This document shows, one piece after another, positions 1 to 61,941 of a stretch of DNA of 64,000 nucleotides. Made by a program: the position numbers and the translations under genes. Under the pieces are notes generated by a model. That model was not told the origin of the DNA. It made no database searches and saw only the letters and a program-made list of their open reading frames with translations. The stretch covers positions 62,001 to 126,000 of the forward strand of contig NZ_FOZS01000004.1 in the NCBI RefSeq assembly GCF_900116205.1, given 5' to 3'. Position 1 is the stretch's first letter. Each line of letters opens with the position of its first letter. The stretch comes from Halostagnicola kamekurae (GTDB taxonomy: Archaea; Halobacteriota; Halobacteria; Halobacteriales; Natrialbaceae).

Positions 1-92
1 TTCCGCTCTCGTTCGTGAGCAATTGTAAGTGTGATCGGATATGGGTTCTGAGCCCTTCTCGCTCGAGTTTCACAGAGAACACCTCGAGAATT

Positions 93-155
93 GACTACTG
101 GTACCGACCGTTCGACTATCGGTACGAATCATTCGACTACTGGTTCTGATCGTTC
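93..155. repeat. 21-bp imperfect tandem repeat, three copies
   Basis: Three consecutive 21-base units begin at 93, 114 and 135. Each opens GACTAYYGGT and ends TTC (for example GACTACTGGTACCGACCGTT at 93). The block ends 13 bases before the first ORB-like element at 168. Units of two helical turns next to origin-type boxes may be protein-binding iterons, but that role is an inference. Confidence 0.7.
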
Positions 156-167
156 ACACTCTCCTCG

Positions 168-510
168 CACACCGTCTTTCCGGTGAAATACACCGCCCCC
201 TCACCCGCCCCACCCCCCTTCAGACCCGTTTCACCGGAAACCCGGTGTGTGCGCGCTCAAGAAAAAATCACCCACCATACGCGAGTATCGTTCCTCCGTG
301 TCGCTCTCAGCCAACCGATCCGATCGAAATTCGCTCGGGTATCGCGGGCGTTCACCGATCAGGACCGGTGTTTCACTGGAAACCCGGTGTCTTCTCTCTC
401 GGTGCACTCTCGTCGCCGCTTCACCGGAAATCTGGTGTGTTCTCCGCCGATCACGCGGATGACCCACGCCGGCTCTCGACGATCGCTCTCTCCACCGGAA
501 ACCCGGTGTG
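168..510. other. Cluster of five ORB-like elements (candidate replication origin)
   Basis: Five copies of a motif close to TTTCACCGGAAACCCGGTGT are present. One is on the minus strand at 168-188; four are on the plus strand at 229-249, 370-390, 419-439 and 490-510. The core CAYYGGAAA and the arm GGTGT are kept in all, so each element is partly palindromic. Archaeal Orc1/Cdc6 initiators bind origin recognition boxes with a core of this kind (CANTGGAAAC), and inverted orientation of boxes around an unwinding region is typical. A C-rich run follows the first box (191-220), recalling the G-string beside many ORBs. No orc1/cdc6 gene is in the window, so the initiator gene would have to lie to the left of base 1. 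The boxes are clear; origin activity is inferred. Confidence 0.7.
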
Positions 511-2176: not shown

Positions 2177-2848
2177 GTGATAGATCCCGCTCTGGTGTCG
2201 ATGGTCGGGTTTGCGATTACAGCAGGAGTCACGACGTTCTTCTCGCCCTGTTCGTATCCGCTCCTTCCGGGGTACGTCGGATTTTACGTGAACCAGACGG
2301 AGGGCCAGGGCTCGTCGGTGTCGGGCTCGGTCCTCCGTGGACTCGTGGCTGGTATCGGGGTACTGGTGACCTTTACGGCGCTTTTCGGCGCGGCATACTG
2401 GCTCGGCCAGAACCTCCTCACTAACATCACGATTCTCGAGACGGCAGTGGGCGTCGCGTTGGTCGCGTTCGGGCTCCTCGTCGTGTTCGACCTGGCACCG
2501 TCCCTTTCGGTTCCCCTTCCCAAGCGCAGAAGCGGTCTCGCGGGATTCGGCATCTTCGGCGCGGGGTACGCACTCGCCGCGGCCGGTTGCGTCGCACCGG
2601 TCTTTATCGGCGTCGTCAGCCAGTCGATGACGATGGATCCCGTTCCGGCGATGCTGGTAGTGGGATCGTACATCGGGATCGTCGTCGTTCTGATGGTCGC
2701 GCTGACGGTCGCGACGGGCGTCGGCCTCGTCGCGAACGCCGGCTGGATCGCCGGGCACACGAAAACGCTCGAGCGAATCGCCGGGATCGTAATGATCCTC
2801 GCAGGTCTCGGGCAGATCTATCTGACACACTTCGTCAACACGTACTGA
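2177..2848 (+). CDS. CcdA/DsbD-type membrane thiol reductant carrier
   Basis: A 223-residue integral membrane protein of the CcdA family, which passes electrons from cytoplasmic thioredoxin across the membrane to TlpA/ResA-like proteins. The two conserved cysteines are visible: C25 in FFSPCSYPLLPGY and C138 in AAAGCVAPVF, each followed by proline-containing helices typical of the family. About six hydrophobic helices fill the length, normal for CcdA. A GTG at 2177 is the likely start; an ATG at 2201 is possible but would cut into the first helix. It follows the TlpA-like gene closely. Its stop codon lies inside the first unit of the tandem repeat starting at 2836. Confidence 0.88.
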   Translation: MIDPALVSMVGFAITAGVTTFFSPCSYPLLPGYVGFYVNQTEGQGSSVSGSVLRGLVAGIGVLVTFTALFGAAYWLGQNLLTNITILETAVGVALVAFGLLVVFDLAPSLSVPLPKRRSGLAGFGIFGAGYALAAAGCVAPVFIGVVSQSMTMDPVPAMLVVGSYIGIVVVLMVALTVATGVGLVANAGWIAGHTKTLERIAGIVMILAGLGQIYLTHFVNTY

Positions 2849-2911
2849 TTTCCGCCAACACGTACTGATTTCCGCCAACACGCACTGATTTCCGCCAACA
2901 CGTACTGATTT
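2836..2911. repeat. 20-bp tandem repeat running out of the ccdA-like 3' end
   Basis: CAACACGTACTGATTTCCGC is present at 2836 and 2856, at 2876 with one change (CGCAC), and as a 16-base partial copy at 2896. The first unit encodes the last residues and stop codon (NTY, TGA) of the preceding gene, so the repeats look like duplications of the gene's own end by slippage. All copies are contiguous, unlike a CRISPR. Confidence 0.9.
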
Positions 2912-3252
2912 TCTCGCGGCTTCCACCGGTCCGCTTGGTCCTTCGGCCCATCGAGAGTTCCGACCCGTTCCGTCTTCGAGAACTGGTTCGGGACACGCTA
3001 CACGGCGGCATACCACGCGGGCCCCCACACCTCGCTTCCGGTGAATTTCTCGCGTAGAGATAGCTTTCGAATCCGTTACTCTCGACCCGGTCGCGAACCC
3101 GGCTCGAGCCACAGCGCTCCCGTCTCGAACGTCTGATCGGCGTTTCTCATTGCGATGAATCACTCGATAAAGTAAATCTCGCTAGACGATGCGGCGGCTC
3201 GAGCAGATCGAACGTTTTCTCAGAATCGGGACCTCTGGCCGACCGACCCAGT
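2912..3252. other. Intergenic region with one inverted ORB-like box
   Basis: No credible gene is seen. The stretch holds one minus-strand ORB-like element at 3026-3046 (TTCACCGGAAGCGAGGTGT when read on the minus strand), facing the plus-strand copy at 3480. The mini-gene at 3253-3426 sits between the two. Confidence 0.55.
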
Positions 3253-3479: not shown

Positions 3480-3500
3480 CTTCACCGGAACTCCGGTGTG
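3480..3500 (+). other. Isolated ORB-like element
   Basis: TTCACCGGAACTCCGGTGTG at 3481-3500 matches the ORB-like boxes at 168-510 and forms an almost perfect palindrome. Together with the inverted box at 3026 it brackets the DUF5786-type gene. A short inverted repeat (AGTGCCG at 3456, CGGCACT at 3475) abuts it. Confidence 0.6.
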
Positions 3501-58619: not shown

Positions 58620-60224
58620 GTGGTTGAGAACCTCGTCGTCGCACCGATGCTGGTCGCGCTCGTGAGTATCGCGGTCACTCTCGCCACGGGCCAGTGGCCC
58701 CGCTTGCAGCGAGTCGCGAGCGTCGGCGGCGTCCTCGCGTATGCGGTCGTTGTCGCCGCGCTCGACTGGCTGATCGTCCTGGGTCCGGACGCGCCGGGCG
58801 CCGCGGCCTACCAGGTTGGCGGCTGGAGCGCGCCGTTCGGGATCACGCTCGTCATCGACGGCCTCGCGGCGTTCATGCTCGCGATCGTCGCCGTCGTCGC
58901 CCTCTATGCCGTCGTTTTCTCGGTCTTCTACGTCGATCCGCTGAACCAGCGGGTCTACTACCACCCGCTCGCCCACGTCCTGTTGCTCGGCGTGACCGGC
59001 GCCTTCCTCACCGGTGACCTCTTCAACCTCTTCGTCTGGTTCGAGGTGATGTTGATGGCCAGTTACGCCTTCGTCGCGTTCTACGGAGGCGCCGAACACA
59101 CCGCCACGGGGATGCGCTACGTGGTGATGAACCTCATCGGGAGCGTGCTCATGCTGCTCGGAATCGGTGGCCTGTACGCCACGCTGGGGACGCTCAATAT
59201 GGCCGACATGGCCCAGACGGTGGCCGACCCGTCCGCCGATATCGGAACTGCTCCCATCGTCGGCCTGTCGATGTTTGTCTTCGCGCCGTTCGCGTTGAAG
59301 GCCGGACTGGTTCCGTTCCAGTTCTGGGTGCCGTCGGCGTACCGCGCCGCCCCGGCTCCGATCGCGGCGATGCTCGCCGGCGCGACCAAGAAGGTCGGCA
59401 TATACGCGATCGTCCGGCTCTACTTCACCGTCTTCGCCGGGACGACGATGCCGATCGCCGTTCCGGGAGTGACAGACGCCTCGCTGCTGACTTATTTCGC
59501 GCCGATACTCCTGTTTCTCGCCTCGCTTAGCATCGTCGTGGGTGGACTCGGCGCGATCGGCCGGGAGACGATGGACGGGGTGCTGGCGTACTCGAGCATT
59601 GGGCAGGTCGGGTTCATCGCAGTGCCGATCGGAATCGCCGGGGTGGCGACTTCGGCCTCCGTTCAGCACCTCGGGATCCTCGCCGGACTGATCTACGCGC
59701 TCCACCACGCGCTGACGAAGAGCATGCTCTTTCTCTCCGCGGGCGTGATTCGGGACGGGACGGGAACGACGCGGCTGGCGGAACTTGGCGGTCTCGCGGC
59801 ACGCTCACCGGTGTTCGCCGGGGCCGTCTTCGTCGGTAGCCTCTCTCTGGTTGGAATACCGCCGCTTGCCGGCTTCTTCGGCAAGTTCTTCGCCTTCGAC
59901 GCCGCCGTCTCGTGGCTCGCGGCCGAGCCGACGGCGGGCGCGGCGGTCGTCTTGCTCGTCCTGCTTGCGGGTGCGGTCCTGACTATCGTCTACGCCACGC
60001 GGATCTGGGTCGGGAGTTTCTGGGGCGCCCGGACGGCAGCGGTCGAGGGCGCGATACTCGACACCCCACAGGTGCTGCTGGTTGTGAGCCTCGCGGTGCT
60101 CGTGGTCCTCGTCGGCGTCGGCTTCGAACCCGTCTACCGGTTCGCCGACGCGGCCGCGACCGCCGCGCTCGACACCGAGGCCTACGTCGACGCCGTCGGC
60201 CCCGAGGGAGGTGAGAGCGGATGA
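58620..60224 (+). CDS. mnhD: Mrp/Mnh antiporter subunit D
   Basis: A 534-residue NuoM/N-like proton-channel protein. GVTGAFLTGDLFNLFVWFEVMLMASYAFVAF carries the conserved Glu, LKAGLVPFQFWVPSAYRAAPAPIAAMLAGATKKVGIYA the Lys, and ALHHALTKSMLFLSAGVI the second Lys. A GTG two bases after the mnhC stop is the start. About fourteen helices. Confidence 0.94.
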   Translation: MVENLVVAPMLVALVSIAVTLATGQWPRLQRVASVGGVLAYAVVVAALDWLIVLGPDAPGAAAYQVGGWSAPFGITLVIDGLAAFMLAIVAVVALYAVVFSVFYVDPLNQRVYYHPLAHVLLLGVTGAFLTGDLFNLFVWFEVMLMASYAFVAFYGGAEHTATGMRYVVMNLIGSVLMLLGIGGLYATLGTLNMADMAQTVADPSADIGTAPIVGLSMFVFAPFALKAGLVPFQFWVPSAYRAAPAPIAAMLAGATKKVGIYAIVRLYFTVFAGTTMPIAVPGVTDASLLTYFAPILLFLASLSIVVGGLGAIGRETMDGVLAYSSIGQVGFIAVPIGIAGVATSASVQHLGILAGLIYALHHALTKSMLFLSAGVIRDGTGTTRLAELGGLAARSPVFAGAVFVGSLSLVGIPPLAGFFGKFFAFDAAVSWLAAEPTAGAAVVLLVLLAGAVLTIVYATRIWVGSFWGARTAAVEGAILDTPQVLLVVSLAVLVVLVGVGFEPVYRFADAAATAALDTEAYVDAVGPEGGESG

Positions 60225-60982
60225 AGGTCCGACGCTGGCTCGTCGCCGGCCTCCTGTTCGGCGCGCTGTGGGTACTCGTTCGAGGTGCGTCGCTGACCCC
60301 GCGATCGGTGCTTGCGAACTTCGTCGTTGGCGTCGCAGTCGGCCTTCCAGTCGCCTACCTCTTCCGACGCCTCTATGATGAGGAAGTCGAGATCACGCAG
60401 CCAATCGCCGCGATCCCCTACGTGATCCGGTACGTCCTCGCGTTCTTCAAGGAGATCCTCGTCGCCAACGTCGACGTGGCCTATCGCGTGTTCGCTCCGG
60501 GGACGCCGATCGATCCGCAGGTCATCTTCGTCCCGTTGCGCGTTCAGACCTCGTTCGGGATCACGACCATCTCGAACAGTATCACGGTCACGCCTGGAAC
60601 GGTCACGCTCGATCACGATGCCGACGAGAACGCCCTCTATGTCCACGTCATCGACGGGCGTGACCCCGAGGCGGTCGTCGAGCCGATCCGAACGTGGGAG
60701 GACTACGCGCTCCGCATCTTCGACGAGGAGCGGTCGCCCGAGGACCCGGCCCCGGAGATCACGGTCCATCCACCCGATTACCCGCCGGAACCGAAGCGGG
60801 CCACCGACCACCTCGATGCGATCCAGTCGCCCGGAGAGTCGACCGACGGACGGTCCGATACAGAAGCAGGGGCCGACGCAGAAGCGGAGAGAGAATCCGG
60901 AACTGACGTGGACTCGAGGGGCGAATCCGGAACTGACGTGGGCTCCGACGACCAAACCGGTGGTGAGAACGATGATCGATGA
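60221..60982 (+). CDS. mnhE: Mrp/Mnh antiporter subunit E with acidic tail
   Basis: A 253-residue protein. The MnhE core of about 160 residues has two N-terminal helices and the block RVQTSFGITTISNSITVTPGTVTLDHD. From about residue 185 to the end is a disordered acidic tail with the repeated ESGTDV(D/G)S, encoded by 19-base direct repeats at 60893 and 60923. MnhE is normally near 160-170 residues, so the tail is a haloarchaeal addition. It overlaps mnhD by four bases and mnhF by 11. Confidence 0.92.
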   Translation: MKVRRWLVAGLLFGALWVLVRGASLTPRSVLANFVVGVAVGLPVAYLFRRLYDEEVEITQPIAAIPYVIRYVLAFFKEILVANVDVAYRVFAPGTPIDPQVIFVPLRVQTSFGITTISNSITVTPGTVTLDHDADENALYVHVIDGRDPEAVVEPIRTWEDYALRIFDEERSPEDPAPEITVHPPDYPPEPKRATDHLDAIQSPGESTDGRSDTEAGADAEAERESGTDVDSRGESGTDVGSDDQTGGENDDR

Positions 60983-61262
60983 GGCGGCCCTGGCATCGAC
61001 GACGATCGACGCAGCGCTGATCGTCGTCGCCGCGCTCTGTCTGCTCTGTACCTACCGGGTCGTCCGGGGGCCGACGATTCCGGATCGCGTCGTCGCGCTC
61101 GACGCCATCGCGACGAACGTCGTCGCGATCGCGGTGCTGTTCGCGCTCAAAACCGACCGGGGCCTGTTCGTGACCGTCAGCCTCGTGCTGGCGATCATCG
61201 GCTTCCTCTCGACGGTCACGGTCGCGAAGTACGTCACCGAAGGCGACATCATCACGCGCTGA
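60972..61262 (+). CDS. mnhF: Mrp/Mnh antiporter subunit F
   Basis: A 96-residue three-helix protein with CTYRVVRGPTIPDRVVALDAIATNVVAIAVLFAL, the PxxxDRVxALD signature of MnhF. ATG 60972 starts MIDEAALAST. It overlaps mnhE by 11 bases. Confidence 0.92.
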   Translation: MIDEAALASTTIDAALIVVAALCLLCTYRVVRGPTIPDRVVALDAIATNVVAIAVLFALKTDRGLFVTVSLVLAIIGFLSTVTVAKYVTEGDIITR

Positions 61263-61402: not shown

Positions 61403-61791
61403 CGATGGTCTCGCTCGAGGCGATCCAGCACCTGACGATCGTCGCGCTCGTCGTCGTCGGTACGTTCTTTCTCCTGACCGGGACGATAGGGCTTCTCCGC
61501 TTCCCGAACGTCTACAACCGGATGCACGCCACGAGCAAGCCGACGACGCTCGGGACGGCGGCGACCTTCCTCGCCGGCTTCGTCCACTTCGGACCCGGCG
61601 GCGCGGGCCTGACCTCGCTCGTGGGAATTCTCTTTCTGTTCCTGACGGTGCCGACCGGGGCCCACATGATCTCCCGGGCGGCTCAGAAGACCGGTGTGCC
61701 CTTCCTCGGCGGCGTGACGTGGCCGAGCGAGCACGACGACGAGGATGGCGGCGATAAGAATGACGACGGCGAGGATGGCGACGGCGAGTGA
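61399..61791 (+). CDS. mnhG: Mrp/Mnh antiporter subunit G
   Basis: A 130-residue three-helix protein with FFLLTGTIGLLRFPNVYNRMHATSKPTTLGTAATFLA, the RxPDxxxRxHA signature in the form RFPNVYNRMHA, and TVPTGAHMISRAA. The start is a GTG at 61399 or the ATG at 61405. A disordered Asp/Gly/Glu tail ends the operon. Confidence 0.92.
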   Translation: MTMVSLEAIQHLTIVALVVVGTFFLLTGTIGLLRFPNVYNRMHATSKPTTLGTAATFLAGFVHFGPGGAGLTSLVGILFLFLTVPTGAHMISRAAQKTGVPFLGGVTWPSEHDDEDGGDKNDDGEDGDGE

Positions 61792-61941
61792 CGGAGTCGA
61801 TCGAGTTGTCAACCAGTATCTATTCAACGGAGCGGCCGGCGTGAATCGCCGTACGGAAGTTCATTTCCTCGTTTCATACTCCAATAGACGATACAGTGGA
61901 TTTTGGATGTAGAGAATTCCGAGTCTTTCTCACGATCCCTC

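Follow-up and report, generated by a model that had tools for sequence, protein, structure and literature searches.

The five-box cluster near the left edge of the window (the whole 64,000-nt stretch analysed, C4:62001-126000, where C4 is contig NZ_FOZS01000004.1 of Halostagnicola kamekurae) very probably represents the distal (right) half of a predicted orc1/cdc6-adjacent replication origin, which probably serves the replicon of C4. An adjacent intact orc gene, inverted ORB-like repeats, an AT-rich region, and a box linked to the Orc protein, which are features of haloarchaeal origins of this type, were all found at the locus. Judged from its sequence, the predicted origin is a standard orc-adjacent haloarchaeal origin, belonging to a family mostly found on plasmids, and this kind of origin is already well known.

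Five boxes within 343 bases, one inverted against the other four, and an adjoining 21-bp tandem repeat had been described in a sequence-only reading of the window, and both were recovered (Table 1). Boxes were searched for as matches to the 21-mer TTTCACCGGAAACCCGGTGTG, with up to 3 mismatches allowed in the window and the genome and up to 4 across C4 and in orthologous loci. Six matches were detected in the window, comprising the five boxes and one at 3480; none of 100 dinucleotide-preserving shuffles of the window contained a match at the same threshold of up to 3 mismatches (mean 0.00, maximum 0). The 4.1-Mb genome had 11 such sites, 8 of which were inside 4.2 kb at the orc locus, and a reversed control pattern had 0 matches. 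A looser degenerate box pattern left this picture unchanged. At up to 4 mismatches, the whole of C4 contained 11 boxes between 59,953 and 65,500 and just 2 elsewhere. The sequence-only reading had considered that the same boxes at many unrelated sites would speak against an origin; instead, they are almost unique to this locus genome-wide.

Table 1. Coordinates of the predicted origin and neighbouring features, in window and C4 numbering
Feature	Window	C4	Strand	Remark
Box beyond orc stop codon		59953	-	box scan
orc1/cdc6 gene		60031-61239	-	402 aa
Boxes upstream of orc		61248, 61391, 61517	-	box scan
AT-rich stretch		61709-61858		candidate unwinding element
Spacer between inverted arrays, right part	1-167		.	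contains 21-bp tandem repeat 93-155
ORB-like box 1, TTTCACCGGAAAGACGGTGTG	168-188	62168	-	innermost of right half; sole inverted copy in window
ORB-like box 2, TTTCACCGGAAACCCGGTGTG	229-249	62229	+	matches family consensus exactly
ORB-like box 3, TTTCACTGGAAACCCGGTGTC	371-391	62371	+
ORB-like box 4, CTTCACCGGAAATCTGGTGTG	419-439	62419	+
ORB-like box 5, CTCCACCGGAAACCCGGTGTG	490-510	62490	+
Brz-type zinc-ribbon ORF, 60 aa	668-850		-	just outside box array; strand of orc
Outlying diverged box	3026-3046		-	4 mismatches; also in H. larsenii
Outlying box	3480-3500		+	3 mismatches; also in H. larsenii

The two outlying boxes have opposite orientations and are ~450 bp apart, and their H. larsenii counterparts (L098:3389 and 3826) flank a DUF5786 gene; they are possibly Orc-titrating or regulatory sites. 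In addition, a variant box, CCTCCGGAAACCCGGTGTGGTC, was observed on two other contigs of the same genome (C6:15609-15629, minus strand, and C8:11513-11533, plus strand), ~1.3-1.8 kb upstream of orc-family genes or fragments, and is possibly the site of a related initiator.

An intact orc1/cdc6 gene has its start codon 762 bp to the left of the window, within the 3 kb in which the sequence-only reading had proposed to look for such a gene. With AAA+, Cdc6 lid, and Cdc6 C-terminal winged-helix domains, its product is full length; it scored 435.7 bits against TIGR02928, where the cut-off is 181.3, and is 99-100% identical to the Orc proteins of two congeners. Its best solved relatives were 2qby_A (E=2e-65), which we take to be Cdc6 homolog 1 (Cdc6-1) of S. 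solfataricus, and 2v1u_A. About ten other full-length orc genes are present in the genome, none of them on C4, and since C4 has no other full-length orc, the predicted origin is probably that of the replicon containing this contig. When the remaining orc loci of the genome were compared by crude GGAAA-centred grouping, a method too weak to establish absence, no comparable box cluster emerged.

Read rightward, the locus consists of the orc gene (transcribed leftward), minus-strand boxes, the AT-rich stretch, and the five window boxes. The two arrays are opposed overall, the left one being entirely on the minus strand and the right one having one minus-strand and four plus-strand boxes. The AT-rich stretch between them has 33% GC (61% for C4), ranks among the lowest 0.16% of 150-nt windows of C4 by GC, and lies outside the window, ~140-290 bp left of position 1. 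Together, the orc gene, the opposed left array, and the AT-rich element support the earlier suggestion that the cluster is half of an Orc1/Cdc6 origin. The tandem repeat comprises three copies of the 21-bp unit GACTACTGGTACCGACCGTTC (71-86% identity) and stands between the box array and the AT-rich element; the matching stretch of H. larsenii does not contain it. Plain blastn searches with the spacer returned mainly matches to the boxes. The AT-rich core aligned to H. larsenii at 84% over 94 nt, and its one other match was of 26 nt in an orthologous locus (L087). Another ~21-bp tandem repeat, CCGCCAACACGTACTGATTT, occurs at window positions 2836-2910, directly after a ccdA-like gene. Cumulative GC skew peaks near 62 kb within C4:1-126000, and over all 466,894 bp of C4 its extremes are at 254,578 and 375,779, away from the site, so that GC skew neither supports nor refutes an origin.

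The relationship between the boxes and the Orc family was examined in 62 orthologous orc loci, which were fetched via the Orc protein alone, making their selection independent of the boxes, and scanned for the box 21-mer at up to 4 mismatches. Upstream of orc, 97 kb of sequence contained 351 boxes; the 62 kb downstream contained 112, and the remaining 493 kb contained 25. At least one box was present in every locus (62/62), which links the box sequence to this Orc family. In most loci, the boxes close to the gene are on the plus strand and those further away on the minus strand, forming inverted arrays that usually have a GC minimum between them. When 466 boxes were pooled, the consensus was TTTCACCGGAAAC-N-C/T-GGTGTG, in which GGAAA and GGTGT are nearly invariant; no conserved G run was found downstream of the box, positions 22-31 carrying little information. 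Moreover, every one of the 62 loci has a plus-strand box that starts 22-55 nt ahead of the orc start codon; in many loci, it stands directly after a conserved CAAACAGTAAAGA-like, promoter-like element. This element looks like the orc promoter, and the start-proximal box is taken as a putative autoregulatory operator of orc.

A cluster formed by chance, or by unrelated repeats such as plasmid iterons of another Rep system, might be suspected from the shortness of the boxes and the unrelated tandem repeat beside them; this explanation, which retains practically no probability, is refuted by the empty shuffles and by the 62-locus comparison, where the boxes are strictly co-conserved with one Orc family across genera. 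It is also highly improbable that the boxes are simply operators, with Orc acting mainly as a transcription regulator of its own gene and its neighbours and not as a replication initiator. The constant start-proximal box, often placed after a promoter-like element, would suit such a role, and a non-initiator regulator has been described in Sulfolobus (Orc1-2; PMC9738581); however, the boxes are confined to the orc locus rather than distributed over many promoters, two inverted arrays surround an AT-rich spacer, and the family is plasmid-borne, providing the sole orc of pNMAG01 and pHALXA01 in Table 1 of PMC3528665.

If the locus functions as an orc-adjacent origin, the Orc1/Cdc6 protein would bind the boxes of the two inverted arrays, and the DNA would be opened at the intervening AT-rich stretch. 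MCM helicase would then be loaded and bidirectional replication would start. Through the start-proximal box, Orc probably represses the gene that encodes it; the box downstream of orc and the outlying ones may serve to titrate the protein. Dormancy is known for some predicted haloarchaeal origins (PMC3528665, PMC3936714), and the presence of such a structure is therefore no proof of activity. An orc-linked origin that is dormant or decayed, and unused for replication in this cell, appears unlikely here, although dormant or broken orc-adjacent origins have been documented in Haloarcula hispanica (PMC3528665, PMC3936714) and the other orc genes of the genome favour this possibility. Against it, the Orc protein has kept its full length and domains as well as near-identity to the proteins of two congeners, the boxes and the promoter element are intact, and this is the sole full orc gene on C4.

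The Brz-type ORF next to the array scored 34.2 bits against PF23454 (cut-off 27.9). Most Natrialbaceae loci in the top-identity group have such an ORF, with four conserved cysteines, near the predicted origin (L098:687-866, L101:2491-2664, and others); no gene at this position is listed in the plasmid tables of H. larsenii or pHTUR04, which are incomplete. In Halobacterium, Brz is a regulator of bop (PMC2253796). A more ambitious proposal, which we regard as speculative and doubtful, is that a Natrialbaceae-centred family of megaplasmid origins is defined by a palindromic ORB variant lacking the G-string. In these origins, the start-proximal ORB would be an obligatory site of autorepression, and control of the origin or the replicon would involve a dedicated zinc-ribbon protein of the Brz type, encoded at the array's edge.

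In Halostagnicola larsenii XH-48, the orc gene and the left boxes were observed at the start of NZ_CP007058.1 (L099, L102) and the right array at the end of NZ_CP007059.1 (L098, L103), the records involved being deposited as complete ('plasmid unnamed3' and 'unnamed4'). At their opposite ends, the two records meet inside one apparent gene, with a frame difference at the join; from its translation, we take it to be a sugar-nucleotide dehydrogenase gene. No orc match was found on the second record, NZ_CP007059 (C5 of the genome matching H. larsenii by box positions). The simplest reading is that the two records are one 303.6-kb replicon deposited as two and cut at the predicted origin. In this way, the Orc family brings to light what is probably a single replicon divided between two 'complete' public records.

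These data locate a likely replication origin for a large secondary replicon of a poorly studied genus and provide a well-supported ORB consensus for one Orc family (466 boxes, 62 loci). In addition, with a box at the orc start codon in every locus, autoregulation of an archaeal initiator can be tested directly.

Members of this Orc family are common on haloarchaeal plasmids of ~60 kb to 1 Mb (39 plasmid records with at least 60% identity, 11 with at least 90%), and in Natrinema and relatives on multi-megabase contigs (L048, L076). The protein from C4 is 96% identical to its ortholog on pHTUR04, 80% to that on pNMAG01, and 79% to that on pHALXA01. On pHTUR04 of H. turkmenica, orc lies between trehalose-synthesis genes and, on the other side, an SCO/TlpA gene pair; these neighbours recur at the C4 locus except for the SCO gene, which was not found within the 64-kb window. 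Table 1 of Wu et al. 2012 (PMC3528665) lists origin-associated orc genes for pHTUR04 (3/3), pNMAG01 (1/1), and pHALXA01 (1/1), and on the strength of these entries origins of this Orc family have already been predicted. The C4 locus resembles the pHTUR04 and pNMAG01 megaplasmid origins included there in having an orthologous Orc and the same boxes beside orc. It differs from those of pHTUR04, pNMAG01, and pHALXA01 in belonging to another species and replicon, and the likeness derives from the Orc protein and our own box scan rather than from a published motif.

A close ortholog of the Orc protein (E <= 1e-150) was detected in just 38 of 61 genomes of the same family and was missing from 23, implying that it is not the universal oriC1 initiator. 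The genome contains 0 matches to the G-string ORB pattern TGGAAAC..GGGGGGT and 1 match to GGAAAC..GGGGGG. Orc-adjacent origins in general are defined without the G-string, and the ORBs of Sulfolobus lack its extended form. The G-string is, however, a search criterion for haloarchaeal ORBs in PMC3528665, and the oriC1-cdc6A family, which is universal in haloarchaea, has G-string ORBs (PMC3936714). With its restricted Orc and its boxes without a G-string, the C4 locus falls outside the oriC1-cdc6A family; since the other structural features are present, it is placed among orc-adjacent origins generally and not with oriC1. Similar to oriC2-cdc6E of H. hispanica (PMC3936714), ORBs are found on both sides of orc, although a single downstream box at C4 stands against eleven titrating ORBs in that system. 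Compared to oriC1-cdc6A of H. hispanica, which requires the G-string (PMC3936714), the C4 boxes end in GGTGTG without an extended G-string, whereas inverted boxes around an AT-rich region beside orc/cdc6 are common to both, and their shared core, a dyad plus GGAAA, agrees with the general layout of ORBs.
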